Program-made: the position numbers and the translations under genes | Shown: one piece after another, positions 1,316 to 64,000 of the stretch | How positions within the stretch are numbered: the stretch's first letter is position 1 | How the letters are laid out: each line of letters starts with the position of its first letter | Assembly (NCBI GenBank): GCA_007449985.2 | Contig: VIIQ02000230.1 | Coordinates: 1 to 64,000, forward strand | Direction: 5' to 3' | From: Desmodesmus armatus | Lineage: Eukaryota; Chlorophyta; Chlorophyceae; Sphaeropleales; Scenedesmaceae | Length of the DNA: 64,000 nucleotides | Notes under the pieces: generated by a model | Seen by the model: only the letters and a program-made list of their open reading frames with translations | Databases searched by the model: none | What the model was told of the DNA's origin: nothing

Positions 1316-2467
1316 CTTCTTGCGCCCTGCTGTTGCCAGCAGCTGTCGTTGTTCGTCCCATGCGAATGCTGCACTGCGTGCTGTGCGGCTGGCTGCTGAC
1401 ACCTGGATGCAACCAGGCAGCGAGTGGAGCTGAACACCAGCATCTGCAGCAGGAGGGGGGCGGGAGGGGGGGGGGACACACATGACACAGGAACGCCACA
1501 AAAGGTGACTTGGGACGTATTTGGTTTGTTGCAGTCCATGTGTGTCCAACAGGACTCTGGGTGCTACTGCTGTGGGGAAGGGGAGGGAGGTGGGCAGCAC
1601 AGCATACCACTCTTCCTGACTAGGATTGTCCCCCTGTTGTATTTGGCTGCTGGCACCTGTCTTGCAACCCGGCACCGAGTGAAGCTGCACACCATCATCT
1701 GCAGACCGGGCCGCAGGCGGGGGGGGGGGGGGACGGGTGGAAAAAAAGGGCCAAGGGCGCGCAAGGGCGGGGCCTGGAGACCGCCCGGGGGGGGGGGGGG
1801 GGGCACTTGCGCAACACCAGACACCATGAAGGAGAAGGGGGTGGGTACAGTTGACTGCTGGGCGCAGTGCTGGGAGCTGGTTGAGCTTGCATGGCCGCCT
1901 TTGTGTACTGCTGTAAATGCTGCCACAAGCACAGCAGCTGAAATGTCTGCTGACTGGCTTTGCCTTGACAGCATGGGTGATTGTCAAGCCATGCACTGCC
2001 TGTACAATGCAAGGAAAGCCCTTGCTCGGTGTAGTTGCTGCTTATACTCATGTCAAAGGACTGCCTGTGACTGTTTAATAAGTGCCTCGTGCTTCTGCTG
2101 CAGCACAAGTTCACTTGTGCGCACACATTGCGGCCAACACTAGGCTGCATGCATGTCTACTCCAGAACCAACCCCCAAAGCCCCTGTGCTCACCAGAGAG
2201 GCTGAGCAGAAATGGTTGCGACTCTAGTGCTTGTAGCTGCTGCGCTCCGCGTTTCGTGAAACCCTTCTGCGCCCTTGTGACCTGCCAGGTGCTGACTGTT
2301 GGTGCTGAGCCCTGCTGATCTGCTGCAGCCTGCTCCTGGAAGAACAGCAAGCTGCCATCGTTCAGACTCGTGATGATGGTATCATTCCATATGCAGAGTG
2401 CATCTATCTTGCGTGCGAAATCATCTACGACTACGCTGGGCTCAAAAGCTTCGAAACTGGGGGCCAT
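1316..2467 (-). CDS. VPS39: VPS39/Vam6-like HOPS tethering subunit, N-terminal exons
   Basis: Two exons are clear on the minus strand: 2467-2194 (ATG at 2467) and 1443-1316, joined in phase (TCT G|AT), giving 134 residues. The product starts MAPSFEAFEPSVVVDDF and has the citron-homology (CNH) beta-propeller start typical of VPS39: 'IDALCIWNDTIITSLNDGSL', a 'KGFTKR' stretch, 'PFLLSLSDAGVQLHSLPG', then 'AAFAWDEQRQLL'. These line up in order with plant VPS39 as I know it. In that family the protein is a subunit of the HOPS/CORVET tethering complex at the vacuole/late endosome and binds Rab7. The exon ends in phase 0 at a GTGGGT donor. A complete protein would be about 800-1,000 residues, so most of the gene is left of the window or the locus is truncated. 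A degraded copy of the second exon start lies at 1654-1708. Confidence 0.8.
1654..1708 (-). repeat. Echo of VPS39-like exon 2 5' edge in the preceding intron
   Basis: The minus-strand sequence resembles the real acceptor and exon start at 1401-1452: both read CTGCAG|ATG-TGGTGT-CAGCT-CACTC, then a GGTTGCA core. It keeps the acceptor CAG but diverges after about 45 bases and has no matching donor. It is read here as a tandem duplicate left in the intron. Confidence 0.7.
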
Positions 2468-4213
2468 GCTACTGCCTTTGCCCGAACGTCAGATGTACGG
2501 CATTGTGTTTATATTCAGCTACAACATACTTCGCGTACAATCAAGCTTCCCGGTAGAGTCAACCCGACCAAACCCTGGACTAGATCAAACCGACTCCGTT
2601 GACACTGTAACCTGACATATACCATATCCCTAGATCATCTGCGTGGAAATCATTTCTGAGGTTCACTAATTCATTGTCAGCTTGCTTGTATGAGTCCGAG
2701 TGCGAGGTTGTGGGGCCCATCTGCACATGTGCACACCATGCTACCGAGAGCCTGGCTAGGCCCTAGGGGGGCTGAGGTGATGCCCAGCAGCTCCAACCAG
2801 CAACCACTCAACATTTTAACACAGTGATACTTGCTGACGGCAACTAGCCATGGCCACAGCGCTGCCCAGCCACTCTACTGGAGATGCAACTGTTACAGAG
2901 TCCATTGTCTGCAAACCACTGCAGAAAGCACGATGGCATGCTCAAATCACACGTGATCATATTTTGGGCAAAGAAGTCGTCAGTAAGTAGAGCGATTGGC
3001 AGTGCACGGCATAAACTGCCACACCATCAGCTGGCGCTCAGGCCTGCCTGCCTAAGCATCACCAATCGGTGGGTGTGCAGCGCTATCATAGATACTACCC
3101 CCCTCAAACCACAGCAGCCGGCCAGATGGACTGCCAAACGTGCTTTGCCTTGCATCACTCATCTACTGGCATCCCAATAATAATGGCAGTTCTCAATTGC
3201 CCCCCCCCCCCAGCCCCGCATTTGTTGCGTGAGGCGCCCCTTACCACCACACAAACCAAAATACAACATAGGCTGCGTTTGTCACATGGACACTAGCCGC
3301 AACTACTGTCCACCAACCACCTCCCTCACATGTGAGACATACACAACTACGCACTCCGTGTACGCCCCACACGGCCCAGGCGCTGTGGCATAGCTTGACC
3401 TGATGATGAACGACACACACACACAGCAAGTTATGGCTGCTGCCGTGCGCATCAACCACCCTTTGCAACCCCAGCTTAGCCCCCCCCCCCCCCCCCCCCC
3501 AGCAACCCAGCCTCAGTGAGGGGTGCTCGGGCCCCTTCCCTCCTCGAGGAGCTCACTTGCCACCTGTGCCAGCACCAAGTGGTGTGGCATTGGCAATGTC
3601 CACACAGGGTACCAAAGCAGGCAATGGCCGCCCGGCGGACGGGACCAGGCCCATCGGGCGGCTGCTGCTGATGCTTCTGACCGGCTGACCTGACACCGGT
3701 GATATCGGTTTAGCTGCGGCAGTGCAGCATTCCGGCAGTGGCTTGTCACAGGCTCAAAGCCATGGGCAGCGCATTCACCACCACAAGCAGCGCTGTGATG
3801 CATACACAAACACACATCTGGAGAACCGCACAAGCGGTTGAAACCGCACATTTATAACATAGCATCTGCAGTGCCCAAAAATATCCACATAGTTCACCAT
3901 GTTCCCAACTGTCAATACTGTTGACAACTTGCGCATGCCGTGCACAAGCTGCACATGGCCAGTTCAATGCAGAATGCCGACTCGACCACAGCGGCTTACA
4001 TAAACCATGACATCACCCTTTTGGAGGTCTCACACCGACGAGGGTTCCAGGCCCAGGCAAGTTCAGGACAGCTGATGGGCTCTCAAGTGAAGGGGAAAGT
4101 GTGACAGGCAACATGTCAAAGTGTGACATGTCAAACTGCCAGTGCTGTACCCATTGTCCCTTGCCCATAGCAGTGGATGCACCAACTGCATATGCAGTGG
4201 GCGGTGCTGCCAG

Positions 4214-4250
<37 letters not shown>

Positions 4251-4397: not shown

Positions 4398-4453
<56 letters not shown>

Positions 4454-5036: not shown

Positions 5037-8000
5037 CAGAGCTTGAGGTTGACTTGAAGATTGGGTCGGTGTCACACACCACATCCTCAGTGACACCTGG
5101 CCGCCACAGCATGCTGGCACTGTTGGCGTGTGAGAGGGTGCCAAGGCCCCCTGCAGACAAACACAGTGGGGTGTGTTAGGCACGGAGAATACATGTGCAG
5201 GTATGTGTGTGGGGGGGGGGCATTGAGGCAGGGTTTGGCATGGTGTGGAAGGCCTGCAGGGTTTGGCAACGCGCTGGCGTGGGAACTTGACACTGCGTCA
5301 CGGCTGTGGCTGCCCTACCCTGTGAGGCATGCATATTGCTGTTCAGCAGGTACGCGTTTGGGCTCTTCTAGGGACACTATCTCTCCAGCTGAGCCCCCCC
5401 CCCCCCCCCCACGCAATACAAAACAAACACACAAATGCCGGCCACAGCCGCTAGGGCCTGGCTCAGTCCCCTCCGCAATGTCATCGTCAATGCCAATCAA
5501 TCAAAATCAATAGAAACTAACTAATAAGAACAAAATAAATAAGAATAAAAAAGAATAAAAAAATGAGAATGAGAAAACAAATAAGAATAAAAACAGGTCT
5601 CGCTGCCATTGAGTCATTGACTCACAGTGGAACTCCACCCAGTCCACCTTGTAGCGCTGCAGCAGCTGGGTGGTCTCAGGCAGTGACATGCCCAACCGAC
5701 CAACGTAGTGGTTGTACCTGAACGGGGGCAGAAGGGAAGAACAGGAGAAGAAGGGGGGGGTGTCAGGTACGTGCTGGTGCATGTAGCAATTTACCGCACC
5801 AACACATGCGCGCGCTGCCGCACTGGACTGTGATATTGATGCAAGACATGGGCTGCCAAACTGCAACTGTGGTGGGTCGTATTTTGTTTTGGAAAGACCA
5901 GCCATGTGCATATACACCGCAGCCACAATTGCCTCCCTCCTCACCCAAGCTCCCAGCCTGTGGGCATGTACGTCACACACAGCTAGCAGACTGAGACTAA
6001 GTCCCACCGGCTGAGACCAAGTCCCACCGGCTACAAGTACCACCAGAGAATTATCCTCACCCGAGCTCCCAGCCTGTCGGCATGTACTTCACGCCCATCA
6101 GGTACTTGAAGCCGTCCTGCAGCTCGCTCGTGATCTTCTTGGTGACGCGGTCGCGAGCATACCACTTTTGCGTCTGGATGTCAAACACCCAGTCCATGCC
6201 CTGCAGGGAAAGGATGGTGGGGAGACCACCCAGTCCACATCAGTTAGGTGCCATGTATATGCTGTGCTGGGGGTGTCACGCCACAAAAATACCTGTCACA
6301 GCTGCTTACAGTCCAAGCCAGCTTGGTCCTGCCTGCAATCTAGTAAAGTGCAATACCGCAAAGCATTGCGTCCACTGTGAGTCACTCCGCCCATCGCAAC
6401 CCCAGTCCCTGTCTCCGCCAAACTCCCAAAACATCACCACCCCTCTTCCCTCTCCTCTGGAACAGGGACTGTAGAGACAATCCTTTACCTGTGGCGCACG
6501 CGGCATGGACGTCTCAAAGAACTTGTAGCCCGCCGCAACAGGCTCTCGGTCTTGTTTGCGTCCCAAGCGTTGATGATGCGCGCATGCAGCTCCATGGCCG
6601 AGGCGAGGGCGTACCCCTCCGCCTTATAGATGTCGGTGTTCTGCTGCCAGGCCATCTCCGCGGCTTGCAGCAGCCCGCCCAGACCGAACTGCGGCACATA
6701 GTCACAAGCAGGTGTCCTCGGCAATCGCACCAATACGCGTACACAGCATACATACGTCAGCCCGTCCTGTTCAGCGGCAAAAAACAACACCCGGGCCCCC
6801 TCCTCAAAAAATGTTCTGCAGCAGAAGGGCTGCTGTCAGGTCAAGCCCAGTTACCGGTATCAAAGTGACTCTGGCACTGTATGTTGTTGAATAAGAAAGC
6901 TCCGATCTCACCTGCGTGTGGTAGATATCGCGCAGTGTCTCCGAACACTCGCCCAGGATGCGGCCCTGCTGCCAGTCCTTCTGCCGACCCCAACGGAAGT
7001 AGCTCTTCACGGTCGCATGGTACAAGTCAACTCCCTGCCGGTACAGCGTCGTGTTATCCGTCAAAACCCCGACCGCCATCCACGCCTCGGCGATACTGGA
7101 GTGCCAATTGCCGTGCACGGTGGGAATGCCCTTGTCCACTGCGTTTTTCGTGATGACTTCCACGTAGAATTGCATCTCGGGATGCACGACGCCCTTGTAC
7201 CATCGCATGAACATGCGCGTCGTGTCCACCCACTCGAGCAGCAGTTCCAACGGCATTTCCGCGCCCTTCAGCATCTCAAGCGACCGAGCCATCGCGGCAA
7301 TGCCCCAGGCCGCCTCCAGGGGCCCGTTCTCAGACTGCAACGTTACGTCAAAAGTACGTTGTTTGTACGCTTGCTTGTGCTTTGTACACGCCGCGGTGGC
7401 TGGGCTTGATGCGCTTTGCATGCATGCTCGAGGGCGAATGCAGTAAAGGCACCCCTGGAAAACCGACACCCCTCACCTGCAGGCCCCACTCCTTGTTGTT
7501 CAGCGCCCAGGAGCTGACGATGTTGAGTATCGACTGCACGTACTGCTCGTCGCCTGTTGCTAGGTACGCCATGGCCTGCTTGTACGTCATTTGTGCGTCC
7601 ATCTCCACAAAAGCCACGTGGCTGCAAATGTTCCAGGGGGCGGCGTCAGGGTAGTGCCTGGGGCAGGAGCCCGCCTTGTTGAAGCCACCATAGCTGTGTT
7701 GGAAGGCGACAAAAGGCAGCAGCAGGCGTGGCAGAGAGCGTGAGAGGCAAACCCCAACTACAACCATCCAATCGGAGCAGCGCATGACTGGATTCCAAAC
7801 AGCAACAGGCTGCGCGGACGTGTCATAAGTACAAGCTGCACACACACATGGTAACTTCAGGTTGCGTCACAAGATGCAGCATGCTTGCATTAGTTGGAAC
7901 TATCCATGCTTGTCTGCCATCAACTATCCATGCTTGTCTGCCTTGGGACGGGGGCGGGGTATCAATGGGCCACCCACCCGACACGCACTGCCTTCATGGG

Positions 8001-11000
8001 GAGTGGGGCACCATAGTCCTTAGGTGTGTCAACTGGCGGGTGCCACACCACACCAGTACTGGCATTGTAGTACACCTGGCAGTGTGGAACACAGCAGGCA
8101 CGTCAGTCAGTGTGTTTTTGCAACACGATAAGGCGCAAATAAGGCTTCTGATACTACCCCCAAATAAGGCTTCTGATACTACCCTACCACGGTGCATGCG
8201 AGCCACTGGCGTGACCTGAGCAGGATCGGCTTGCACTTCTCTTGGAGATAGCTGCGAATGCCCGGCCTAAACCCTAAACCTAAGCCCTGAATCCTAAACC
8301 CTAACTAGAGTGGCACGAAAGGTTGACTTCATTTGACAAGTCAACTGTCATCCTGTCCACTGGCTGGCTGATGCCTGCCAATGACTACAAGTTGTCCTGA
8401 CACTGCGTCTAGTAGACGCAGGACGCCCTCCAAACATCAACTCTGCATTGTCCTTGTTCGACATCTGCTATCGGACAGTGGCTCTCAAAGCTAGGATAGG
8501 GTGCACTAGCCTGGGTGATCAAGGAAACCTAAGAAGAAAGCTGGCAATGTCTGTCAGCCGCACCCTACCTTGGGTGGCACGCCTGTGCCAGTCAGGAGTG
8601 TGTTGAGTGCCGCTGTTTGGGGGGCACGGCTGCCCTTCAGACGCCACTGCAAGCAGCAGGTAGGAGACAAGACAGGCAGCTGAGGCACATAGCAGTCACG
8701 ACCATTCAACAAGAGTCTGTGTTGTGTTGACTTACACGTGTGTTGACTTACAACAATACCAGTTTAAAGGTTCAGAGATTCATTGCTGTTACATGAGCAG
8801 TGTAGTATACAAAACCACATGCAGCACGACATAGGCTCAGCGTGTCAGACTGGCAGCATGCATGCTGGAGTGAAAGCGACAGAAACAGGGCATCAAACAG
8901 CAAGCACGACAGCAAGGTCAACATGCACGCTTGCACCGTTTCTTGTTCAGCCACATCAGGGGGGGGGGGCGTGCAAGAAAGTCCTGGACACCATCACGAG
9001 AAAGTCAAACAGGCCCCAGACACCCACCCACCCCCCCACCCCCACCCCAAAACCTGCGTTTAACGCCCCCAGGTGTCTTAATGTGAATAGTTAAGTATAT
9101 GTACGCATTCGGTGGCCTTCAGATGGTCCTGTACGCTCATTTGTTCATTTGATCTGATCGGTGATCTGCTGCTGTGCCCCGAAACCTTTGCTGCACTGCA
9201 CACAACGTTGTTCATACAGCTCTTATGAGTCTTTAAGTTCATAATATAAGCCTTCGATAAGCTGTCGAGCAAATGAGGCACGTTTTCCTCTGCTGGCCAT
9301 GTGGTGTGGGGTGATGGTCGGCTGTAAGACACGAACTATTTGTTGGCAGGCTACGGAGACACGCGCAATGGATAGATCTTGGTATGCGCTTTTAAAAGAG
9401 CCGCTTCCCACATCATTTGGGCTGCTGACAAGAAAGTTACTGAACCCTGTGCAAGAAAGTCAAACAGGCCCAGACCACCCACCCACCCCCCCTCCCAAAA
9501 AAACCCCAGAATCCTTGTAAATGAGGCCAATATAATGTTTATAGCATATATAACATATACTGAATTTTGCAGGAGCAAGTGTGGGATGGTGCTGTCATCT
9601 TACTGAGTGCCCCCCCCTTGGCCACATTGAAAAGTTTACCTGGCCTAGGGTTTAGGGTTTAAACACTAAACCCTAACCCTAAACCCTAGCCTCCCACCTG
9701 CATGAGTACCAGTTCCGCAGCTCCTGCAAAGCCCCCTGGCTGATAAAGATTCACCACCCTGAAAGGGCGGTCAGGCGTGCCTCTGACCCATCTCAGCAGT
9801 ACTACTGCAGTACTACTATCTGCTTTTTGCTCTTTGGTTCTACTACGGTCGTAGAATCGAGAGCAGAAAGCAACCCTAACACTCATTTGCCCCAGCCCCG
9901 CACCTGCATGAGAGCCAGTTCTGCAGCTCCTGCAAAGCCCCCTGGGTGCTTGAAGCGCGTCGGCCTGCCTGTCTTGTTGCGTGCGTCAGTGCGTATCTTG
10001 GTGGTGCGTGTGCGGATCCACTTGCGCTGCTCCATGGCGGCCGACTTGATCTGAATGATCTGCTGCTTTGTGAGCTCAGGTACCCACTGCTCAACAATGC
10101 TGACGGTCTGCAGGGAAGAGGGAAATGCGGGGCAGAAGTGGCATGGTGCAGGGCGAGTGAGCGCAGGGGAGGGTGCAGGGCAGCTCAGGTACCCACTGCT
10201 CAACAATGCTGACAGTCTGCAGGGTCAGGGGGATGCAAGGCAGCAGCGGCAAGGTACAGGGTGGGTGCAGGGTGAGTGAAGGGTGGATTTTGGGAAAGAG
10301 CAGCAGCAACTGTGTGGGTGTGGCATGGGTCCAGGGATGGCAGGACAGGGTCACACGTGAAAGACTGAAGCTTTCTTTGATGGTCTGTGTGGGTGGTCCG
10401 GCCCTTCCTGCAAAACGCAGCACACTGCTGAGTTGCAGGAGAAAGTAGCAGGTAGTGGCTTGACTGCCTGTAGCAGACAGTCAAACAAGGAATTGCTCAG
10501 CAAGCCGCACTTGCAGTTGGCCGCTGCAGCATTTTGCACATAGCCCCCTGGGCCAGCACCCCCCCCACACACACACACACACACAACACACCTGGTTGGC
10601 GCCAAAGGTTGGGATCTTTGCCGTCGCCTTGACCGTACAGGCCCCCCGGCTCTTCTCAAAGTACCACTGCAGCGGCTCACTGAGTGAACCATTCACCTCC
10701 AAATCCCAACGCTCACAATCTACCTTGGCAGGCGGGGGCGGCAACAAAGCGGAGGGAACCTTGCGGGGCGCAAACATGAGGCAGCACTGCTGGTGTGCGT
10801 CGACGTCTGCTGCTGTTGCGACCGGCATCTGACCACACTGCAGGATCTGTTGGGCGCTGCTGCAGGAGGGGTTGTTTGCGTCCTCGGCATCTGCGGCGAT
10901 GTCTGACAGGGGCTCTGGGGCATGCCCAGCGTCTGAATCGATTGCAGGTTGGGTGTCTGGCTCTGGATTTGTCTCAGCCTTGATTTCTATCTCAATATCA

Positions 11001-18796: not shown

Positions 18797-20392
18797 CCCA
18801 TCGAGGAGCCAGCAGCAGCATCCGCTGAGGAGCCAGCAGCAGCAGCAGAGGTTCAGGCCAATGGTACAGAGGGTGCTGAGGGTCAGGCAAATGGTGCAGA
18901 GGGTGCAGCAGCAGAGGGTGGTGAGGAGGGTGGTGAGGAGGGAGACCTGATTGAGCTGGCAGAGGGTGAGACCCTCCCCGTTGTCGATGAGGATGGCAAC
19001 ACGTTGGGCACACTCCACCACGATGGCCGCGTGTTGAACGAGGCAGGGGAGGTGATTGGGGGGCTGGACGAGGACGGCAATGTGATGCTGTACGAGCAGG
19101 CAGCACCTGAGGGTGAGTGAAAGGTTGTTTGGGTGGGCGGTGTGGGGTGTGTGTGTGTGTGTGGGGGGGGGATACGGGGGGTTGGGGGGGGGGGGGTGAA
19201 GGGGGGTGTTGCTTGGGGGGAAGCAGAATAGGCTTGCAAAGGTTTTTTTGGGGAGGGAGAGTGGTTGAGGCCGGGAGGTGATTGGGGGGCTGGACGAGGA
19301 CGGCAATGTGATGCTGTACGAGCAGGCAGCACCCGAGGGTGAGTGAGGGGGGGATTGGTTGTTATTATTGTGTGTGTGTGGGGGGGGGGGGGAGACAGGC
19401 TTGCTTAGGTGGTCGGGGGGGGGGGGGGGGCTCATATGTTTGTGATCCTCAGGGGATATGGGAGGGGCCTGGTTGGTGTTCATCACGTGTCCTGTGCTGC
19501 TGTTGGCCCTGCACCTGCCTGACTACTTTTGTGGCTACCAGCATCCCCGCCGTGTGTGCTTTTTGACACCTGCCCTTTCTCCGTCTTTTTCCGTCTGTCC
19601 CCCTCCAGAGATGATCATCCTGTCTCCCGCTGAGGAGGAGGCTGAGCAACTGATGAGACAGGCAGCCATGGCGTGGAACAACCAGCACAACAGGTGATGA
19701 CGCAGGACACCACTGACACCAGCTTTGTGCCTTTGCACCCTTGCACCCTTGCCTTGCACCTCTACACGCTTGCCTTGCTGCGTGCTGTGCACAGCAGTTA
19801 GTATGTCCCCCCAGGCAGGAGTAGCAGCAGCCTTGCCTTGCACACTTGCCATGCAGCCAACACATGTGCATCATTGAACAGCTTGCGCACGCTGTGATCG
19901 CTTGGCATCGCGTCAGCCAGGCCTTTTCAATCACAATGTTGTGATCGTACTGACACTGTTCCTGCCGTTGCTGCTGTCACCACCATCCACCAGGGAGCTG
20001 GCTGAGAAGATGCAGCGCAGGGCACTGGAGGCAGTCACCAAGGAGGTGAGGGGGTTGACTAAACCAAGGGGGGGGGGGGTTGTTACAAGTGGACACTTTC
20101 AACGCTGGGCGGTACTCTCCAATTTGAGTCAAAGTAACACAGAAGTCATCAGGGTTTGCAAGTCTCTAAGGAGGTAGGGACAAGTAAGTGAGATGTTTTG
20201 GAGCGAGGGAAGCAGTGGGGTTGGGATTGAGATGGGGGAGAAGCCTGTCAGGTAGTAAGGAGGTGTGTCGTCAAGGACGTGAGTGGGCAGAAATGTTGAT
20301 GTGTTTGGGGTAAGCAGTAGCTGCCTCAGGATTGCGAGGAGTTTATGCAGGTAGGGAACCAGGAACCCCTGAGGGTTTCTTCAAGCCTGACC

Positions 20393-32624: not shown

Positions 32625-32670
32625 CATTGATGTGTGGCGAATGTGTCTGCGTGTAACATTTTCTTCCCCA
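32625..32670 (+). repeat. 46-bp direct repeat, right copy
   Basis: This is the exact match of 31454-31499. It lies about 225 bases beyond the LINE-like stop codon and includes a TGTAA polyadenylation-type motif. Confidence 0.9.
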
Positions 32671-41433: not shown

Positions 41434-41497
<64 letters not shown>

Positions 41498-41525
41498 CCC
41501 GCCCGCCCGCCCGCCCGCCCGCCCG

Positions 41526-41565
<40 letters not shown>

Positions 41566-46813: not shown

Positions 46814-49727
46814 ATGGGCGTACATACTCGAGCAATGCAGTCTATCATGCTGGGAGTTTGTTTGACCTTAGTAATATGTCATGCGGGTGCAAGCCTGCCA
46901 CAAGCAGAAACTCCTGCTGGGCACACCGCGCCCGTCCCACACCTGTCTGCGCAGAATCTGCGAGCTCTCGGCACTAGCTTCAGTCAAAAGATATCGAAGG
47001 CTTTGAGGCAGAGCCTTGAAGAGCACAAGGCCAGCACCACTTCTGTAGACGTTGATGATGATGATGCTGCACCTTTTGAAGTGCACCAGCATGATGCTGC
47101 ACCTATTGAAGTGTACCAGCACGAAACCAACAAGCCCACTTTGGGCAACTGGTTCCAAGACCTCCTTAAAGACATGGAGAAGCAGTTTGAGGCTGAAAAT
47201 GAGCCTTACCATCGGGACCACAGCAAGGAGCCCAGCAGCTATGAGGACGATGACGACAGCCCCTATGCTCGGCATGGAAGGGACCAGCAGTACCCCAGAC
47301 ATGAACAGCACCAGCAGGACCACTACAAGCAGTACCCCAGACATGAACAGCACCAGCAAGACCACTACAGGCAGGAGGGTCCTGAGCATGATGGCCCTTG
47401 GCACAAGCAGTACGACATGGAGCAGTACGAGCGCTACTACCAGCAGTACCAGGAGCAGTACAGCGGTAGTGACAGCAAGGCGGAGGAGTCCTGTCTGCAG
47501 GAGGTGGCTCGCAAGAACTGCTTGGCAGCCGACAGCAACACCACAACCGCCAATGACGACACGCTGCGCTTCACGTAGGTCTCCCTCCTTCAGCCCTTTG
47601 GCTTGCTGGCTAGTGCTGTGGCTGGGACCTTGTCCCCCATGCCTGTACTGTAGCGTGCTGTGTGATCAGCAGTGCAGGGGGTCTGCACGTGCGGTCTGTG
47701 TGTTTGCTTGGAGTGGTTTGGGTGGGCTGGGGGTGCGTGCTGCACACAGGCAGGTACCATAGTAACTTCCTGTGAGGCGCCCACCAATGGATCATCCGGT
47801 ATCTGGCCGGCATTCTGGGATCTGACTGGGTGACCCATCTTCTAGCCGCAGGCATGAGATGCAGCAGCACAGTGGCAGCAGCAGGCAGGTAACTATGTGC
47901 ATGCTATGCATGGATGTATCAACAGTACACCATGCGCGCACCAGCAGCAAAGCAGCTCTGCATTAGTCAACAGCCTGCACCTGACGTAGCAGCTGCCCCA
48001 GCTCGCTGCAGACGCTCTTTGCGGTGACCCTGAAGGGTTCAAATCAAAGTTACAGGCCCATATGGGTGAGCAAGCGTAGTGCATGTTTTGCAACATTTCC
48101 GTGTGATGCTTTGCAGCAAAAGGCCAGCTGACCCCTCCCATACGCACCCAAACAAACACACTCACTCATTGTGACGTATCTGCCACCACCTCTCCAATCT
48201 ATCTCTCCCTCTTCACAGGTCCTCTTTGGGGTGCTGCTTCAGCTCCGACGAGCAAGACAGGTACTACGAAGAATCCAGCTACTCTGGCGAGCCAGACTAC
48301 CCCGCCTATGCTTCCCTCATGGCTCAACGGGCCCACAAGCGCGCCAGGGCTATCACTGCTGCTTCCAGCAGCAAGGGCTCTGCAGCCTCTGTCACTACCG
48401 CATCTGCCAAGGTAGCCTACTATGACACTCCCACTGTGTTCTTTCCCCGTGGCGGCAACAGCGAGTGTGTGTGGAGCTTGGCCTACCACGAGCCTGTGCA
48501 GGTGGACGCAACCACAACACAGATCGGCATTGCCAGCGCTACATGGTGAGAGGGGTGGCAAGGGGTTGGGGTTTAGGGCACAAGGGTGCATAGGGTTTAG
48601 GGTTTAGAAACCCGGCGCCGGCGTCAAGTTGACCAAAGGGTCGAGGCGGCCAGTCTTGAGGCGATGCAGTTGGCGCTGCAAGCCCAATCCAGCACTATGA
48701 GGGCCAGGGCAGCTACTGTATCCCTAAGCATGTAGCTGTCTATGCTGACGCGTGGTGTGGCCCACACACCCGGATGCTGGCTGCTGTTGACAGTGCTGCC
48801 CTAGGCGCAACACCTATGAAGCCAAGCACCTGCCTGCCTGCCTACCTGAAGTACTGTCTGCCTGCAGGACTGCATGTCTGCCCTCCTTCCTGCCTGCCTG
48901 CCTGCCTGCCAACCTGCCTGCACGCCTGACTGACTGGCTGACTGGCTTGCTGCCTGCCTTCCTGCCCCCCTGCTGCCTCCAGCAACTTCAACGGCTCCAT
49001 GGAACACTGCCACGGCCTCCCGCTGGGCAATGGAGCCATCTTCACCGTACAAGGAGACATCTACCGCACGACCATCGCAGTCAGCAAGTATGCCCCACCC
49101 ACCTTGAACGTCTCAGCAGACTGTGCGGCAGACCCCACTCGCAGGGCCAACACACAGCGCGCCAGCGCCAAAGTCGCCCAGCCAGTGCAGCCCACACCAG
49201 CAGCTAGCGCTCAGAAGGCATCAACCAACCCACCTGAAGCCGCAGCACAGCAGCAATTGGCCCAGCCAGCAGACGGCAAGCAGCCTGCGCAGATCCCTGC
49301 AGGGCAGCAGCCAAGCGCTGGCAGTCCCCTGCCCGCCGTCCAAAAGCCCGCTAAGCTGGAGCGGGGTCCCGCCCGGACTGCCTCGGCGAACGGCGTGAAG
49401 ACAGCAGCTGGGTACGGCATGGAGGGACGGTACAAGGAAAACGGCATGGATGGACCCTACAAGGAAGTCTCCTACTCGTGGGAGCAGAACAGGCCGAGCG
49501 GCATGTATGGAGGCGAGGCGATCATCATCACAGGAGTGATCACGTCTTTCAGCGGCTTGTCAGAGAAATTCGACTACCAGCACGGTATGGTGGAGTACGT
49601 CGCTGCCTATAACGGAAGGCCGTTGACTAATGCGCAGTACGAAGCCCTGCCGTATGACGTGCCTCACATCAAGCCAGGGGGTTATAAGCTGGTGCTCGTG
49701 GGAGACGCAGACGAGAGCTCCTACTGA
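46814..49727 (+). CDS. Secreted cysteine-patterned protein, family member B
   Basis: Three exons, 46814-47574, 48219-48545 and 48983-49727, all in phase, 610 residues. The parts equivalent to exons 1-3 of A are one uninterrupted exon. The signal peptide (MQSIMLGVCLTLVICHAGAS) is followed by 'LRALGTSFSQKISKAL', an acidic stretch, 'NKPTLGNWFQDLLKDMEKQF', a Tyr/His/Gln linker with a duplicated 14-residue unit (QYPRHEQHQQDHYK), C-x8-C (CLQEVARKNC), 'SLGCC', 'ECVW', 'NFNGSMEHC', a short Pro/Gln/Ala spacer of about 110 residues and the C-terminal domain 'GGEAIIITGVITSFSG ... YDVPHIKPGGYKLVL'. It lacks the LC cysteine present in A and C. Introns before SLGCC and before FNGSMEHC keep the same phase 2 as in A and C. 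Confidence 0.82.
47591..47660 (+). repeat. Dispersed ~75-bp repeat, copy 2
   Basis: GGCTTGCTGGCTAGTGCTG, GCTGGGACCTTGTCCCCCAT and CTGTACTG match copies at 24968-25037 (reverse) and 55596-55680. It lies directly after the exon 1 donor of member B. Confidence 0.75.
48565..48608 (+). repeat. Telomere-like TTTAGGG patch in member B intron
   Basis: GGGGTTTAGGG and, 16 bases on, ATAGGGTTTAGGGTTTAG lie just after the exon 2 donor of member B. Confidence 0.8.
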
Positions 49728-53125: not shown

Positions 53126-56100
53126 ATGCGTCTATTACTTCTATTCACGCTTTTGGGCTGCGTCTTTGCAGTACGGCAGACAGCAGAAACTGCCTCAAGT
53201 CTGTCAAATGCAGACCTGCAGCAGCTGGGCACCAGCTTTGCAAAGATGCTCCTCCATGCCAGAACAGAAGCAGCAGCAGCTCACAGCGCAGAATCAGGCA
53301 ATCACAACGATAGAAAACTCTTGAGCAGCGACTGGTCTCTTCCTGGTCTGCAAGACTCCGCCTCTGACGATTTCAAGAGCTGGTACACAGGCAGCTATTT
53401 CAAAACGGCACCTGCAGCCAGCAGCAGCAAGGTGAAGGCAAGCATCATGGCAGATGCTGTGATTGCAAGGACTGTCAGCAAGGGATTCGGGTATCTGGAG
53501 GAAGTGATGGGTATCAACGAGCATCAAGTGCCGGAATACAGGCAGGGGGGAGCACAGTACAGTGGTGGTGACAAGTCGGATTACGGAGAGCAGCGCAAGA
53601 GGCGTGTGTGGCATGATGAGGACCACGAAGAGCAGAAGGAGAGGTATAGGTGAGAGCTCCCTGGGGCATTGCTGAGGTTGTGCTGCATGGTAGTGTGTGC
53701 AGCATGGTAGGGTGTACAGCATGGTGGGTGCAGCACTAGCATTGCAGCACAGTGCAACAGCCACAGGATCACAGTGTGTGCTTTCTTGCACATGGCTATT
53801 TGTACAGCACGTTGCCTGAGTGGACCATGTATAGAAGCATGTGCTGTGTATAAGCAGTTCTGTGACGGCCAGCAGCAGCATAACGGTACAGCTTGCACAG
53901 AGGTCTTACCCCAAGACAGAAATACAGGGCACTGCTTGTTTAATTGCGCCTGTGTTGCCAGCACGCCTAGCAGCAGCAGACCAGTAAGCGAAGCTCGCAT
54001 AATCTTGGGCAGTTGCGAAAGACAGCTAAGCACAGAAAGCAGAGAAGCCTTGCTGCTCCAAATCATGTGCTGTTTACATTGGCTGGCTGTGACTATAAAA
54101 GGAGTAAGGCACATATACGCACCTGCACTTCCCCACCAGGGGCATCATATGCATGGGCTCCCTGGCATTCACCAGCAGCAGAGAGCGGCAGTACACACAC
54201 CATCTTCCTAGCACTAAGCAGCTGCAGCCCTGCCTGCTCAGCCCAACGCTCTAGCTGCATTGCTGCACGTGGTTGAATAAAGATTGGTGGGGTGCCTGAC
54301 TGCACACGTTAGAGAGCAATAGTTTGTGTATCGAGTGTATGCATCTCTGGGGCCGCCACCCAAATGAAGTGCCTCGCTCTGGAAAGATTCACAGCGGCGC
54401 TTTTGCGTTACCTGCAACAGCACCAACTGCTGCACGTTGTTATACACCGCTTCCAGGGAGCACCACGATGAGGAGCCCCACCCACGCAAGGGTGGTGTTC
54501 AGGACGGCTATGGAGATCACAAGAAGGCATACCAGCAGCCTAAGGAAGGCTATGAAAGGAAGCATGAGCAGCCACACGCCGACACCCCTCTGCCCATCTA
54601 CAAGAACGTCCCATCTGAAGACGACTATCACAGCCAGTATCGCACAGGCTCCGGTAAGCTGGGCGGGACATTGTGGGATGTTGAGCTGACCGACCACCTC
54701 CCGCACATGACAGCACAGTTGTGCTGCAGCACAGCGCAAAGCAGCTGCTACACAGTACCGCTGTAAGCTATGGCAGCAGGCGCAGAATCTGCACCCTCCT
54801 CCGTAGGGTTGCATCACTGCTCACTGCAGAGTGCCGCAACACAGCTCAGGTGTCGTTTGCCAATTGTTGGGACGTTTGCCTAGCCTAAGCATGAGGCTTG
54901 GAGAGTACAGGCAAGCTCATAGCAGTGACTGAGCCTGCACAAGTTGACATCCCTGCTGTGCATGACACGTGTGCTCCTCTGCTTGCTGCTAAATTTGTGC
55001 TGCTTCATGGACCCAGGTGACAACCAACGGAACGAGGGCTACGCTGGTGAGGCACCTGCTGGGCAGCAGACACCCGAGTATCAGCAGGGACCCGCTGAAG
55101 GAGATCACAAAGAGGGCGCTGAATACAGGTACGCACAGCATAGCAGCTGGCGCACGTTACGACACCTTACGTCACTGACCGCAGCTTCCGTCAGATCCGT
55201 GAGGCAGCGCATGATGCATTATGAATGTCTGCTGGCCTCTCGGTCTCTCTCTTCTCCAAGTGCGGCCGAAGGTTTTGGCGTGCGTGCGAGTTTGTACACG
55301 CTCCAGGGCCGCATGAACCTGCTGCTTGCCACGGCTGCTGCGTCACAGGGGTGACGGCCCTGCCGAAGACCCACAGCAGCAGCAGCAGCCTCCTGTGTAC
55401 GAGCAGCAGCCAGACCTCACACCTGGTGCCCAGGATCCTTCATACGACACCCCAGACCCCTCGAACGAAGCCCAGGGCCCCTCTTACACTGGCCCAGACT
55501 CCTCGTACGGAGGAGGCCCTGACTCGTCCTACAGGTGATTGCCGTGACACCTGACCTCAGAGACTGGGGTACATCAGTAGGCCCTCTGGACACCCTCATG
55601 AGCCCCTGGCTTGCTGGCTAGCGCCAAGGTTGGGACTCTCCCCCCAATTACTGAACTGTACTGTACTGTGCTGTACTGTACTGTACAGGGCTGAAGTGCC
55701 AGAATACCCGGAGGATGGTTCAGATGAGTATAAGGAGGCATACTACGGCCCCTCAAAGAGTGAGGAGGTGTGCCTGACGGAGGCATCCATGGCGGAGTGC
55801 CGCCTGACTGGAGCACCTGCAGACGAGGGCTCTGCATTCAGCGTGCAGTACACGTGAGCAGGGCGGTCGGGCTGGGGGCGCGGGGGGCGCGGGGGGCGCG
55901 GGGGGGGGGGGGGCATAATGTGGGTAGGGTAGGGTGTTGCAGTCGACCCAAGCAGGTTGATATGACCAGGGGGTTGAAGTTGGTGTTTTCAATGCAAGGA
56001 GGCACTCTGTGGCGGCCCCTCACAGAGGGAGGTGTGCCTGACGGAGGCATCCATGGCGGAGTGTTGCCTAACAGGAGCGTCTGCCAACGAGGGGTCTGCA

Positions 56101-58210
56101 TACAGCATGCAGTACAGGTGAGCAGGGCCGGGGGGGGTGGGAGAGGGTGGGTGGTGGTATGAGGTGGGATTGCGGAGGGGACAGAGTGGCACGGTGGGGT
56201 GGGGGCAGTGTGTGTGCAAGATGTGGGCAGCATGTGCACCGTGCACTGGCCCAGTGCACTGGGCCGGGCCCAGTGCAGTGCACAGGCCGGCTTTGAAACA
56301 TCCCAAGGTACTCTCACTCACGCTAGCATCCGACGTCTGCGTGCCCCCGCTGCCATGCTGCCCTCACACAGGTCTAAGCTGGGCTGCTGCCGCCCCAACG
56401 CTGATGTCATCCTGAGCGGCAAGGCAGGGCTGGCATCAGACACTAAGGGTGCACCCAAGCAGGGGTCCAAAAAGAGCGGCAGAGCAGCCGAGCTTGAGAC
56501 CTATCGCAAGGGCAAGGTGTTCTACCCCCGAAGCTCTCAGACAGCCTGTGTGTGGGACGTCCATTTCCTCAGCACACCAATTGCGGTCTCGCAGCATGTG
56601 TCACAGACCGGCTATGCAACAGCCACATGGTGAGTGGTTCTGGTTGATGCAGCCTCAGCGCTGTGTTCTTGCAAGTCGGCATGCTGGACTTGCGCCCTTT
56701 CCAGCCAAGATGACGCCAGTGTGCATTTCAAGAGAGCGTCACTCAAGTTTACAGCGGCAGCATGGTAAAGATTTTGGGTTGAGGCCCAAGGGCAGAGTGG
56801 CCTTAGGCCGGTCTGGTGGGAGAGGAGCTAGTGTATGGGGTCTGAGAGGAGGGGGGCATCGACGCATGGAGCTGAGCTCAGCACCTGTTCCCTAGACTGA
56901 GTACTACAGTAGTTTGCGGCGAACAATATGCACGGTATGACACCTGAGCGCAACAGGGCATCGAGACTGACATGCTTACACCTGCCTGCCACCTGCCACG
57001 CGGTGCTGCTTCTGCCCCTCCTCTTGCTGCTGCTGCTCCTGCGCTGTGCAGCCACTTTGGTGACGCCATCAACAGCTGCGACAGCTCCCTCTGCGATGGT
57101 CTCACCATCACAGTACAGGCTGATGTATACGAGGCATACGCTGTCAGCGAGCACCCAATATTCCCAGCAGTCCGGGACGCATCCTGCACAGACTTTGCCC
57201 TCAACGTGACCTCTGGCAGCCGCAGCACCTCTAACACACGCGTGGTCGCAACCCCGCCTCGTTCAACCCTGAAGCCCATCCAACGCTCCTTCAGCCCCCC
57301 TTCCTTCGCCCCCCTCTCAACACCAATTGCCCAAGCACCTGCACCCGTCCCAGCCCCAAGGTGGATGCCATCAGTACAGCAGCCAGCACCTGCACCAGCC
57401 CCAGCCCCAATTCCTCAGCTGGTCCCAGCCCCTCAGCCGATGCCTGCACGTACCCCAGCTCTCTTCGAGCCTGCCCCAGCCTCGGCTGCTGAGGAGCCGG
57501 CACCAGCCCCGGCAGCTCCTACTCCTGCTCCGTTAAGCAGGGGGCACTCCAGCATCAAGCTAAAGCCTCTTGTGCCACCACATGCGACTGCGGGCGGCAG
57601 CGGCGGCAGTCAAGGCTCCAGCGTGGAGTCTCCATCGTCACCCCCATCGTCATTCCGTTCAGCGGGCGACTTCAAGAAGTTCCGCGTAAAGACGGAAGGC
57701 CAGGCGCAGGCGGAGGCAGAACTGGTCAACACAGCATCGACCTCATCAGCAAGTGTGGCGGTCGCGGCAGTTGAGTCCGCGGCGTCAGAGGATGTGGAGA
57801 TCGGCACTGCCTCCGTCGAGGCTCAGCCTGCCATGGAGTTCAAAAAGTTTGTGAGCAAGGCCACCATTCCAAAAGAAGCTGCCTCGGAGTTACGGGGAGC
57901 ACCTGCGCCCGTCAGGTCCTCCGCCCCCGACAACCAGGCCACAGCGAGCTTCAGCGCCCCCCAAATCTACGGCGGATATGCCACCATACTATCCGGCCCC
58001 ATCACGTCCGTCACTGGCGTTTCACGTCACAAGTTTGACTTCAACGGCGGCGTGATGCAGTTTGTCGCAAGGTTTGATGGCGTGGAGCTGAGCGTCGACG
58101 ACCTGGCTGCCGTGTCAGAAGATGTGCCGTTTATTCAGGACAAGGCGTATCTGTGGTTGTTTGACAAGGAGGGAGCTTATGCAGCCAAGGCCCAGGGGTG
58201 GAAGCCCTAG
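53126..58210 (+). CDS. Secreted cysteine-patterned protein, family member C
   Basis: Seven exons, 53126-53649, 54457-54653, 55017-55128, 55349-55534, 55689-55853, 56372-56629 and 57052-58210, all phases closing, 866 residues. The signal peptide is MRLLLLFTLLGCVFAV. Then come 'LQQLGTSFAKMLLHAR', a charged linker carried on several small exons (with 'PSYDTPDPSNEA' and 'PDSSYGGGPDSSY' repeats), C-x8-C (CLTEASMAEC), 'KLGCC', 'ACVW', 'HFGDAINSCDSSLCDGLTIT', a Pro/Ala spacer of about 270 residues and a diverged C-terminal domain 'GGYATILSGPITSVTG ... EDVPFIQDKAYLWLF'. It is the most divergent of the three. A nearly complete copy of exon 5 with an open frame lies in the next intron. Confidence 0.8.
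55596..55680 (+). repeat. Dispersed ~75-bp repeat, copy 3
   Basis: CATGAGCCCCTGGCTTGCTG, GCTAGCGCCAAGGTTGGGAC and a CCCCCCAATTACTGAACTG stretch with TACTGTACTG units form the longest copy. It fills most of the intron before exon 5 of member C. Confidence 0.8.
55995..56126 (+). repeat. Copy of member C exon 5 with open frame
   Basis: It reads GGPSQREVCLTEASMAECCLTG-SANEGSAYSMQY, then AG|GTGAGC, against the real GPSKSEEVCLTEASMAECRLTG-PADEGSAFSVQY. The first 32 bases from GTGTGCCTGACG are identical and about 12 of the next 54 differ. There is no stop and the donor keeps the same phase, but no acceptor in the right phase was found. Confidence 0.85.
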
Positions 58211-60154: not shown

Positions 60155-63100
60155 GGTGTTGGCTGGAGGAGGCCGACCTACTCAGTCTGCATACAATCGG
60201 TGACAAAGTGCACATACAACACCAGGCAACGGCAGGCAGACAGACATCAGCGCAGACGTACGAGGGAAGGTAGTATGGATGCACTGCAACAGCCTAGGGC
60301 AACTTTGGAACTCGTTCGATGTGCACCCCCCCTCCCACACCACCATCACACAACAAGAGGTATGCAAGGCAGGCTGAGAGTGACCACAGCGCTGCTAACC
60401 CTTAACAAAAGGATGCAATTCATTCCTCCCTCCAACCTGGCCGGCCCCAAGCAACCACCGCAGAACACACCTGTGCTGCCCGCCTGCTGCTGTTGCTATG
60501 GCCGCCTGTCGCTCTGCCTCCCTGCACTGCAGCTCCGCCTGCACCAGCAGCTCCCGCAGGTTGTCTGCGTCAGCCTGACACACCTCCAGGGTTGACTGAA
60601 GGTCTGAGATGCGCGCCGCTGCATCCTCATCAGCCTGCAGCAGGAGGATGGGTGGGGTGGGTGGTGCCATGAGGTAGTGTGGGGTAGGGTGGTGCAGTCA
60701 TCCTAAACAGAGGGGCACGGTGGGGTGGACTGAAGGTCTGAGATACGCGCCGCTGCATCCTCATCAGCCTGCAGCAGACAACACAACCAAGCCACACCAT
60801 ATACACATGCATAAGTTGCTGGTGTTGTGCTGCTTTCACTGCGACTGCACTTTACTGAGTCTGCAGTAGACCGAACATGTCAGCTTGAACAGCCAGCGAG
60901 CAGGGCCACTACCCTGTACTGTTGGTGTGCAGTAGGGACGCAAGCATCACATGCACCCCACAGTCAGCTTCTCATGACCAACACATAGCCCAACACCCAA
61001 CATCTCGAAATCCAGGTGTGTGAGCACCCAAGGCATACCAAAGTAAAAACTTCCTGGACCCCCTGCACGCTAGTCATAAATCTCAAAGCCAGCGCACCTG
61101 CAGCGCCTGTTCCTGCACCTCCTGCAGCCTCTGTTCAAGCTGCGCATGCAGCTGCTGCTCCTGCTGCACCAGCCGCTGAGACGCCTCCAGCTCGCTGCGT
61201 GCGTTGCTCACAGCAGCCTGTGGGCAGTATGGGCGCAGCAGCACAGCACAGCGCAGCGCAGCACAGCATGAGAGGCCTCGTCAACACAGCATGAGAGCCA
61301 CAGCAAAACGTCAGCAGGAACGGCATGTGCAGCTGAGAGCGGGCCACAAAGCTCTCCAGCCCCACCTGCATGACCTGGTGACTGAAATTGAAACCTCAGC
61401 AGACCCGTGGTCTCAGACATTCAGGGGCGGGGAGACACCCCACTGCGTGGGGTGTGGGTCGGGGCGGGGTGGTGTGGTGAGGGGGGTGGTGTAACAGCTT
61501 CACAAGACAGTGCCCACTTCCCAACCCACCAACACAGAATATTGCCTGCCATACTCTCCACCTACCTGCATGTACTCCAGCTGCTGCTCCAGCCACTTCA
61601 CAAAGCAGGGGTCAAGGGTACTTGCATGCTGCGTGTGTTTTTCGAACTTAGACCTGATGAGCCTTGAAGAAGGCGGAATTAGTCGTCTGTTCGTTCACTC
61701 CACACGCACAATACAATACGCCTGCTGCCTGGGTCGCTGGTACTTCCCCACATTGTCTGTACAACCCCCAAAAAATGTTAAGGGTTAGGGTGTTACTTGT
61801 CCCAGCTCTCCAGGCCCACCTGCATGTACTCCAGCTGCTGCTCCAGCCCGGCCACCTCCTGCTGTGCTGCTGGCGGCCACAGGGCGCGGTTGTGGCCAGC
61901 AGCAGCGAGGCGCGCAGCAACCTGCACAGCAGCAGCATAACATGTATGCATGCCCACATACTGTACGTTACTTGTCTAGTAGGTTGCAGCACTGTTGGCA
62001 TTCCACAGGAGCAGTTAGCAACTGTGCACGGTGTGTGATGCCCAAGCATCACGCTGAGCTTGTGCTGGTGCAAGTAGTGCCAGTCCTGCTGGAGCAACTG
62101 GCCGCCCAACCAATTCAGCTTTTGGCTCACTGGCTGTTGCTGAGAAAGGGAACTGTTCACCCACTTGATTGTACTGAACCATGCATGTCCTGGCAAAGGT
62201 GCTAAGCACGGATCCACTGTCGCACACTCCCTGGTACAAATTGCTGCCTGGTGCTAATTGCCCAAGGCCCCCCCCCCACCTGCTCCCCAACGGCTGCCTG
62301 TGCTTTCGCTGCCGTCGCTGCCGCCAGCTCTGCTGCGGTGCTTGCTGCCTCAGACTGCGAGGTGACCTCACGCAGCCGCGACTCCAGGCGGGCCACCAGT
62401 GCTGCCAGGCCAGACAGCTGCCCCTCCAGCTCACCCTTGCTGGCCTCAAGGCTGGCCACACGCTGCGCAGGGGGGGGGGGGAGCAGTCAGGCAGTCAGTG
62501 TTGGTTACAACGAGGCCCCGAAAGGCCCAGCCGACCCAGTCAGTCAGTCAGTGTCCGTTACAAAGAGGCCTCAAGGACCCAGCCGACCCAGTCAGTCAGT
62601 CAGTCAGTGTTCGTCGCCGACCCACTCACTCACTCATTGTTCGTCCGACCCCATGCAAGCCCCGAGACCCAATCCATGGGGAAGGAGGGCAGAGGAGTGC
62701 AATTGCCTGACAGGACCCTGTCTTAGCCCCATTGGCGCAGTGGTAGCGCAGTCCCTTCGTAAGGGAAAGGTCGCGTGTTCAACCCACGCATGGGGCATGT
62801 GCAGGGCTCTCATCAGGGATTGGTGCTGGTGAGGAGTGCCCTTCCTGCTCTAGGTGTTGCCAGTGCACGGTGACACAATGCTGTGCATGCAGCATTGCGC
62901 CCCTAGCCCTTCCCCAGCCCAGTAGGCCCTCCCCGCAGCCAGTGCTGCCAGGCCAGACAGCTGACCCTCCAGCTTACCCCTGCTGGCTTCTAGGCTGACC
63001 ACTTGCTGAAGGCGGTGGGGCTGGCGGGTGGCTGTGATAAAGTGGGCGCATCCTGGCTTCATTGCTCTGGTGGTTACTGCAACTACCCCAAGGTTTTTCC

Positions 63101-63401
63101 TGACTGCTGGCCCTCTCTGAACCTTGGTTGTGTAAGCAGCACAGGAGGGGGCCCCTCGAAAGTGAGGCAGGGGAGTGGCGCTTGATTTCACCACATGTGG
63201 TGCTGGATGCCTGCTTACCATCTTGTGCTGCTCCAGCTGGCTCTTCTCCCGCTTGAGCTCGCGCAGCTGCTCACGCAGTGACGCGTTCTCTGCTGCTGCC
63301 GACTCGCCCTCAGCAGCCGCTGCCTCTGCGCTGCGCAGCTGCGACACCACTGCTGCCTCACGACCCTCAACAAGAGCCAGGCGCCTCTCAAGATTGGTCA
63401 C
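59571..63401 (-). CDS. GRIP-domain golgin, 5' end outside or unresolved
   Basis: Six exons read on the minus strand: 63401-63219, 62462-62280, 61921-61820, 61217-61098, 60634-60471 and 60186-59571, all closing in phase (455 residues visible). The first five encode Glu/Gln/Leu/Ala/Arg heptad-like coiled coil ('LREQLRELKREKSQLEQHKM', 'GELEGQLSGLAALVARLESR', 'DNLRELLVQAELQCREAERQ'). The last exon has poly-Gln and Gly/Ser runs and then a GRIP domain: 'VDLVYLRNVVLKFLEAV', 'ALMPAVAAVLQATPAEF'. The Tyr in VYLRNVV is the residue that in known GRIP domains binds ARL1 at the trans-Golgi. By family it is a trans-Golgi tether. The first visible exon starts at an acceptor in phase 0, so more coding sequence lies upstream, probably beyond 64 kb. 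The introns hold several exon-edge copies and a tRNA-like sequence. Confidence 0.82.
60727..60776 (-). repeat. Echo of golgin exon 60634 5' edge
   Basis: The minus strand reads CTGCAG|GCTGATGAGGATGC, then AGCGGCGCG-ATCTCAGACC, the same as the real acceptor and exon start at 60592-60640. One codon differs silently and homology ends at TTCAGTC. It lies in the preceding intron. Confidence 0.9.
61348..61591 (-). repeat. Two echoes of golgin exon 61820 3' edge
   Basis: The real exon end LEQQLEYMQ|GTGGGCCTGGAGAG (61801-61848) recurs at 61563-61591 as LEQQLEYMQ|GTAGGT. At 61348-61376 only VMQ|GTGGGGCTGGAGAG remains. Both lie downstream in the following intron and each keeps a donor. Confidence 0.85.
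62726..62797 (+). tRNA. tRNA-Thr(CGT) or tRNA-derived SINE head
   Basis: A cloverleaf can be folded: acceptor GCCCCAT/ATGGGGC (7 perfect pairs), D stem GCGC/GCGC around AGTGGTA, anticodon arm GTCCC-TTCGTAA-GGGAA (one G-A mismatch at the top, anticodon CGT, T33 present) and T arm GCGTG-TTCAACC-CACGC. Box A (TGGCGCAGTGG) and box B (GTGTTCAACCC) are intact. It sits in a golgin intron on the opposite strand. No T-run terminator follows closely, so it could be a young tRNA-derived element rather than a working tRNA gene. Confidence 0.75.
62938..63011 (-). repeat. Echo of golgin exon 62462 5' edge
   Basis: It reads VVSLEASRGKLEGQLSGLAAL, a close copy of the real RVASLEASKGELEGQLSGLAAL (62395-62470), with several base changes. 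It lies about 480 bases upstream in the preceding intron, on the far side of the tRNA-like sequence. Confidence 0.9.
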
Positions 63402-64000
63402 CTGCAACACCGTGTTGACACATCAAGGCACACACATGTATGAAGCACAAGCTGTCTCGTCAGCTTCCTTGGAAGCGCCTTTCACACTTTCTAGCCCCTC
63501 AACATGAGCCAGTTGGTCACCTGCGCTGCAGTGTTGGCAATAGGAGGCACACACATGTATGAGGCTTAGGGTTTGGGGTTTCAGGCGCTGCGCAGCTGCG
63601 ACACCACTGCTGCCTCACGACCCTCAACAAGAGCCAAGTGCCTCTCAAGATTGGTCACCTGCACCGCAGCGTTGACATATTGAGGCACACACACGTTTAT
63701 AAGGCACATGTTGTCTCGCCAGGTTGCTTGGCAGCGGCTGCACACACTCTCTAGCCTCTTTGAAGTCAGCGTGCCGCAGTTCCCGGCATCCCAGAGTCAC
63801 GCTGCCTGGTTGCTTTGTTCCTCCCGTCACCGCATCGCCCTCCCACCCGCATGTTGCTGGCCACCATATGCTGCACCACACTTGCAGCTGATAGCACCAC
63901 TACACGACAAAAGGTAAGCGAGGACAAAGTAGGCCGCGGCGGCCTCCGCTGCTGTCGCCCAATCAAACCACAAACCAGGTGTTGCCCCTGGTCACCGCAA
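63402..64000. other. Right edge: golgin intron or 5' region
   Basis: Besides the two exon-edge copies I find no exon that joins in phase to the golgin. A telomere-like TTAGGGTTTGGGGTTT lies at 63568. The gene most likely continues past the window. Confidence 0.5.
63508..63702 (-). repeat. Two echoes of golgin exon 63401 5' edge
   Basis: At 63586-63702 the acceptor and codons VTNLERHLALVEGREAAVVS are nearly identical to the real exon start, but the frame meets TGA after QLRSA. The flanking intron (GCACACACA-GT-TA-AA) is also copied. A shorter copy covers 63508-63567, with the acceptor side and intron only. Confidence 0.9.

Follow-up and report, generated by a model that had tools for sequence, protein, structure and literature searches.

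Two processes close to the one described here are established: internal gene duplication, reportedly treated by Gao and Lynch in 2009, and intron gain by tandem duplication, which Hellsten is said to have described in 2011. Internal duplications are described as local events within genes, some of which carry whole introns or activate splice sites (PMC3443670, PMC4974935). In the potato RdRp gene, an intron-exon stretch was duplicated together with its acceptor and polypyrimidine tract, and an intron of this gene carries a further tandem duplication, of 83 bp (PMC4974935). The Exonize survey of 20 eukaryote genomes found intronic and exon-intron-spanning exon matches in more genes than full-exon duplications (PMC12343006), and introners are characterized as short repeated sequences linked to introns (PMC9860276). 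Here we analyze the first 64,000 nucleotides of contig VIIQ02000230.1 from the green alga Desmodesmus armatus (hereafter the window), in which introns of five genes hold copies of the neighboring exon edge together with its splice site.

The introns that we sampled from this alga contain an excess of short direct copies of exon edges and their splice sites, arranged in a fixed geometry. In the five window genes we found 17 copies of 15 exon edges in the adjoining introns (VPS39-like, one edge; lyase, three; TPR, six, one of them with three copies; member C, one; golgin, four), which bears out a first-pass annotation of the sequence that had reported edge copies at a dozen or more junctions in these genes. 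The matches are 34-231 bp long and 73-96% identical. Pfam supports three of the gene names, through Alginate_lyase PF05426 (lyase), TPR_12 (TPR) and GRIP (golgin, joined product); the VPS39-like partial product had no Pfam match and keeps its first-pass name, and the first 303 of the 634 residues of member C likewise gave no Pfam match.

The host assembly comprises 115.8 Mb in 831 contigs, and the window has 57% G+C, many introns and abundant CAG repeats. Exon edges are the predictions of a gene finder that was self-trained, without RNA, on the window plus 19 ten-kb stretches from elsewhere in the genome (254 kb; the wider comparisons covered 24 stretches, 304 kb including the window; stretches are named L0xx), and they were verified by protein homology for the TPR and PRP8 genes only. 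Training converged on the donor CAG/GTGAG and the acceptor CTGCAG, with 357 predicted introns of median length 212 bp in the 254 kb.

The first-pass annotation had proposed comparing introns with their flanking exons against shuffled exon-intron pairs. In our controls, 45 bases from each edge of 235 internal exons were aligned to both flanking introns and to length-matched introns of other genes. At a score of at least 18, 18/470 edges matched the expected intron, compared with 3/470 on the wrong side, 0/470 in random introns and 1/250 for exon middles (Fisher P = 6e-6 vs. random introns, 0.001 vs. the wrong side and 0.006 vs. exon middles). Matches on the expected side comprised 6/235 5' edges in the preceding intron and 12/235 3' edges in the following intron; those on the wrong side comprised 3/235 5' edges in the following intron and 0/235 3' edges in the preceding one. 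The two wrong-side matches listed at a score of at least 20 involve short exons (48 and 50 bp), whose edges overlap each other. Three of the 16 right-geometry matches at that score lie on doubtful exons (two in L028 and one TPR copy, 23756-23803), and the test misses copies that the gene finder itself predicted as exons.

If the copy that runs on into the remaining exon is regarded as the real edge, an assignment that we made ourselves and checked by homology for TPR only, acceptor copies lie upstream and donor copies downstream at 15/15 edges, on both strands, and the strict geometry noted at first pass holds. With uncurated gene-finder labels, 64 of the 66 aligned junction pairs could be assigned (the other two lie too close to a stretch end), and those in the expected geometry outnumber the others 29:9 at donors and 19:7 at acceptors. 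We judged most exceptions to be copies mistaken for exons or parts of the L028 array. The geometry loses its value as an independent clue to mechanism, however, because exon sequence reaches an intron by tandem duplication only when the unit spans the junction. The edges and copies in the window, with the identity of each match, are as follows.

1390-1477, - strand: VPS39-like acceptor edge; copy at 1644-1734 in the preceding intron, 81%; a short exon is also predicted within the copy.
6054-6097, - strand: lyase donor edge; copy at 5938-5981 in the following intron, 89%.
9872-9948, - strand: lyase donor edge; copy at 9669-9742, 83%; a 26-bp exon is predicted in the copy.
10073-10159, - strand: lyase acceptor edge; copy at 10182-10267, 84%; spacer homologous (z 4.2), hence tandem.
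19047-19206, + strand: TPR donor edge; copy at 19273-19429, 79% (exon part 98%, intron part 64%).
21970-22047, + strand: TPR donor edge; copy at 22132-22209, 90%; segment single in orthologues.
22728-22819, + strand: TPR acceptor edge; copy at 22534-22625, 89%; 4/4 codon differences synonymous; segment single in orthologues.
22897-23119 and 23123-23350, + strand: TPR contiguous tandem duplication across a donor (exon part 93%, intron part 70%).
23584-23653, + strand: TPR donor edge; copies at 23755-23824 (87%), 23892-23943 (80%) and 24129-24185 (about 80%).
24928-24961, + strand: TPR donor edge; copy at 25092-25125, 91%; high-copy element 24964-25036 in the spacer.
55746-55936, + strand: member C donor edge; copy at 56013-56201, 76%.
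60589-60643, - strand: golgin acceptor edge; copy at 60723-60777, 96%; spacer not homologous to the outer intron and with no genomic relative found.
61806-61848, - strand: golgin donor edge; copy at 61554-61594, 93%; 148-bp high-copy element 61619-61766 in the spacer.
62396-62465, - strand: golgin acceptor edge; copy at 62939-63008, 89%.
63328-63499, - strand: golgin acceptor edge; copy at 63585-63759, 85% (exon part 97%, intron part 79%); spacer z 12.6, the clearest tandem unit of the window.

The last of these golgin matches covers 175 bp, 98 bp of which are intron in the gene model. A search of the genome for a second golgin locus, which would have served for dating, found none. A tRNA-Thr (CGT) gene lies on the + strand at 62726-62797, in a predicted golgin intron, between an exon edge and its copy. 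In protein comparison, the TPR product shares 63% identity with a Scenedesmus sp. NREL 46B-D3 protein and 61% with one labelled Sobl393, which we take to be from T. obliquus, so the alga is a relative of Scenedesmus. Elsewhere in the window, related genes with Pro/Gln/Ala-rich middles occupy 40769-44740, 46847-49727 and 55007-58210; the first two match in DNA, the third, member C, is similar near the C-terminus by eye, and the first contains eight near-identical 33-bp repeats (43826-44090). An internal telomere-like CCTAAAC repeat is found at 8266-8304, and the same sequence occurs at or near several contig ends.

We favor the view, at a probability of roughly 0.6, that the copies are produced by frequent local, direct, tandem-type duplications at unremarkable places. 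Such duplications, roughly 100-270 bp long, would be frequent in the genome, and in intron-dense genes the duplicated unit would often span an exon-intron junction. With the outer splice sites kept, the transcript would stay correct, and the intron, now longer, would contain a spare exon edge with its splice site. Within the unit, the intron part would then diverge, become broken by insertions and deletions (indels) and sometimes gain short mobile elements, whereas the copied exon part and splice signal would stay recognizable.

The local repeats are strongly biased toward the direct orientation. In a self-comparison of the window (E ≤ 0.01), pairs less than 3 kb apart were direct in 36 cases and inverted in five, all five being palindromes, while repeats farther apart, before the low-complexity filter, showed 36 inverted vs. 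11 direct pairs; the direct bias is therefore local. Across the 254 kb, direct and inverted pairs within 3 kb numbered 129:4 with low complexity masked (167:9 with soft masking), and across the 304 kb, after filtering, 148:4. The inverted and random-intron controls together exclude chance or low complexity as the source of the copies. The pairs are spaced at a median of 250 bp (135 pairs), or 173 bp for the 42 pairs with at least 85% identity. Tandem units are plain in some places: the TPR unit 22897-23119 is followed immediately by 23123-23350, and in this region (22897-23350) as in golgin (63328-63759) the units are contiguous or nearly so, with an intron part that can still be aligned. Finally, some copies contain stops or frame breaks, as expected of intronic DNA, and the introns that carry copies are longer than others (median 484 bp for 13 curated introns of 14 listed, vs. 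214 bp for all 417; P = 1e-4), in keeping with the intron growth that had been proposed.

Units placed at random would frequently yield this outcome. Of random 107-264-bp units in genic DNA, 53% contained a junction, 23% lay wholly in intron and 24% wholly in exon; setting the exon-only units aside, because they would mostly damage the protein, raises the junction share to about 69%. Among 33 wholly genic pairs of at least 85% identity, 23 had a junction in a copy, 5 were mixed, 3 intronic and 2 exonic. Since random units span junctions so often, no targeting of splice sites is needed, and we rejected targeted duplication once whole units had been placed randomly.

For finer comparisons we used a curated set of 24 pairs, chosen by us, for codons, and 23 of these (without 3942/3827) for the spacers, in which homology to the outer intron marks a whole tandem unit. 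The set leaves out L033, the 3.9-5.7 kb array of L028, L024, other exon-exon repeats and weaker pairs, as well as the VPS39-like pair, the pair D8390, and the second and third TPR copies; its members are partly dependent, two of them sharing one PRP8 exon. In 7/23 pairs the spacer matched the outer intron at z ≥ 3, the homology that a tandem unit should show. The tandem mechanism proposed at first pass is partly supported, by the 148:4 orientation bias and by these seven spacers; the other 16 spacers fall below that score.

Several observations count against duplication followed by simple neutral decay. In 16/23 curated pairs the spacer did not match the outer intron (z < 3), yet the exon part was kept equally well with and without such a match (median identity 92% for the 16 pairs vs. 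93% for the 7; P = 0.48). Simulated neutral tandem copies with 90-95% exon identity lost spacer homology in only 0.5-10% of cases (cut-off z < 2.5, below which all 16 spacers fall), and those with 85-90% identity in 6-36%, depending on the indel rate. Pooled over eight pairs in which both sides can be aligned, two of which show no difference and have less certain gene models, divergence was 9.5% in the exon part and 29.6% in the intron part, a ratio of 0.32 compared with about 0.65 under the neutral expectation that the intron part is lost about 1.5 times as fast. Codon differences in the curated pairs were synonymous in 47/74 cases (acceptor copies, 16/23; donor copies, 31/51), above the 40% expected under neutrality (P = 3e-5) and below the 79% expected for two coding copies (P = 0.002). 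In addition, when matched segments were shifted randomly, junctions were enriched (55/98 vs. 34.3 ± 4.2) and exon-intron pairs without a junction were scarce (6 vs. 18.7 expected), although in our view this null ignores the unit and overstates targeting. The exon and intron rates therefore differ by more than one-sided selection predicts, and some extra preservation would have to be added to the duplication scheme, whether by former or present use, by homogenization with the exon, or by copying confined to the edge and splice signal. In sum, the copies resemble neither purely neutral nor purely coding sequence.

These observations raise the prospect that the copies are not debris but are kept by the cell, either as spare or decoy splice sites or through rewriting by conversion confined to the exon, which we regard as possible but doubtful. 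Splice sites were scored in 28 pairs (the curated 24, the VPS39-like pair, D8390 and two further TPR copies) with matrices derived from the gene finder's own predicted sites, among which are some copies. Copied donors scored as high as real ones (median 7.1 vs. 6.7, P = 0.46, 18 pairs), and 17/18 ranked among the highest 5% of intronic GTs. Copied acceptors had a median of 4.6 vs. 5.9 for real ones, a difference that was not significant (P = 0.38, 10 pairs), with 2/10 in the top 5%. Judged by their scores, the copied sites could serve as decoys.

The more definite form of this idea, in which selection maintains, or until recently maintained, the copies as functional alternative exons or splice sites and the intervening introns are free to diverge, seems unlikely to us. 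It would account for the synonymous share in the curated pairs, which is matched by 23/36 in an uncurated set of at least 90% identity; for the much closer match of exon parts than of intron parts; and for donors as strong as the real ones in copies of which the gene finder reads several as in-frame exons. The synonymous share drops, however, to 42/87 at an identity of at least 85% and to 169/532 for all uncurated pairs with at least 15 exon bases, larger sets in which exon-exon repeats and the arrays of L028 and L033 are counted too. The reading frame is also interrupted in some copies: the 24 curated pairs have two in-frame stops and two gaps in their copies, and single stops occur in the second TPR copy, in another PRP8 copy and in an L017 copy. 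The acceptor copies 22534-22625 and 60723-60777 meet stops just beyond the copied part, and yet acceptor copies as a group show the synonymous excess given above. Finally, the TPR orthologues carry each duplicated segment once, and the second copies are therefore not part of the ordinary protein.

Homogenization, in which local gene conversion (or conversion from cDNA, whose tracts would be confined to exon sequence) repeatedly restores the copy to the state of the exon and makes it look young beside old intron parts, appears less probable again. It fits the independence of exon-part identity from the spacer match, and several matches stop, by eye, about 6-12 bp from the junction. Conversion predicts that 40% of codon differences should be synonymous, though, and not the 64% found in the curated pairs, and two PRP8 copies share two states that are absent from the exon.

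Insertion of a mobile element with a long target-site duplication, the spacer being the element and the copies its flanking repeats, is very unlikely as the general cause. We searched the genome, skipping simple repeats, with six copy-bearing stretches and four control introns. Dispersed or high-copy elements were present in 3/6 copy-bearing stretches, including the spacer elements 61619-61766 and 24964-25036, but a control intron also held one (1/4), and these two elements leave their spacers partly unfilled. The first is a 148-bp dispersed element in a golgin intron with 131 candidate copies, those scored being mostly 91-95% identical. No genomic relatives were found for the L017 and golgin 60589 spacers in this search, and window positions 9600-10000 gave weak partial matches only. 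In L023, an element adjoins the copy but lies outside the spacer; a guess that it was tRNA-derived was dropped when no Rfam match was found. It belongs to an 80-bp family (window 23815-23894 and L023:2940-3023; 24 matches including the query), both sampled members of which start about 0-14 bp after a copied donor in sense orientation, and which is possibly introner-like, judging from these two members viewed in context. The TPR member, 23815-23894, is closely bounded by 52-bp copies. In the PRP8 gene, an element of 83 bp seems to have inserted into a copy unit that already existed. Elements account for some spacers, then, and not for edge copying generally.

An intergenic 50-bp pair at 31454 and 32625 was also considered as a target-site duplication and rejected, as it represents two ends of one family resembling long interspersed nuclear elements (LINE-like). 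The 3' part of this high-copy element occupies 31999-32671 (458 candidates; 39 other copies scored 98-99%), and the segment 31454-31503 corresponds to its final 50 bases and runs into a stretch of A.

A gene-finder or assembly artefact is scarcely credible: the models were self-trained without RNA and took some copies for exons, but window copies differ from the exon by 4-27% and so are not doubled reads of one sequence, the TPR and PRP8 edges were checked by homology, and random introns gave 0/470.

Returning to tandem-type duplication as the source of the copies, we found that the habit is general but patchy, and the genome-wide habit suggested at first pass is not borne out in that form. 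Curated or test-positive copies were present in 5/24 ten-kb stretches outside the window (L016, L017, L023, L028 and L031); L014, L019 and L024 hold weaker junction pairs that were left out of this count. L023 carries the PRP8 gene, 12 joined exons of which align to the 8xi2 chain with gap-free joins, the model being short of 4 and 19 residues relative to that chain. Seven PRP8 junctions have copies, in 6/12 introns (11 between joined exons and one before the first). Three of the copied junctions are weak (a 23-bp copy, a copy with 11 exon bases by a C run, and a copy of 76% identity with a stop); two of the six introns rest on weak copies only, and without them 4/12 remain. L028 carries RPL7/uL30, in which one exon is copied at both edges.

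If the densities of 18/470 edges and 6/12 PRP8 introns hold genome-wide, junction-spanning duplication would contribute visibly to the lengthening of introns in this alga and would provide it with strong donor sites ready for use. Well-kept exon parts beside lost spacers pose the question of whether the copies are used, rewritten or neutral. They are also a warning for annotation, as a gene finder readily calls them exons.

How does this pattern compare with the systems described at the outset? Among the matches listed in the open-licence literature, we found no description of it in Scenedesmaceae. Introners form dispersed families, whereas the L017 and golgin 60589 edges, the two tested by genome search, had no match outside their own gene and gave no sign of introner-type dispersal. 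A spacer that is itself the element, as under a long target-site duplication, was not found as a general cause, the closely bounded TPR case being single. As in AGGT-type intron gain, tandem duplication sets a second splice site nearby, but in the aligned pairs we saw no new intron with its ends in the two copies; instead, the outer intron continues past them. Exonize requires coverage of the query exon, whereas the copies in the alga are mostly partial edges with a splice site in fixed geometry. The closest likeness is to internal gene duplication, since the copies are direct, close together and within one gene; the known emphasis there is on new introns, however, while here existing introns are lengthened and a spare exon edge is kept. 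What marks the pattern in this alga is the density of the copies, the retention of junction copies in lengthened introns, and the preservation of their exon parts.

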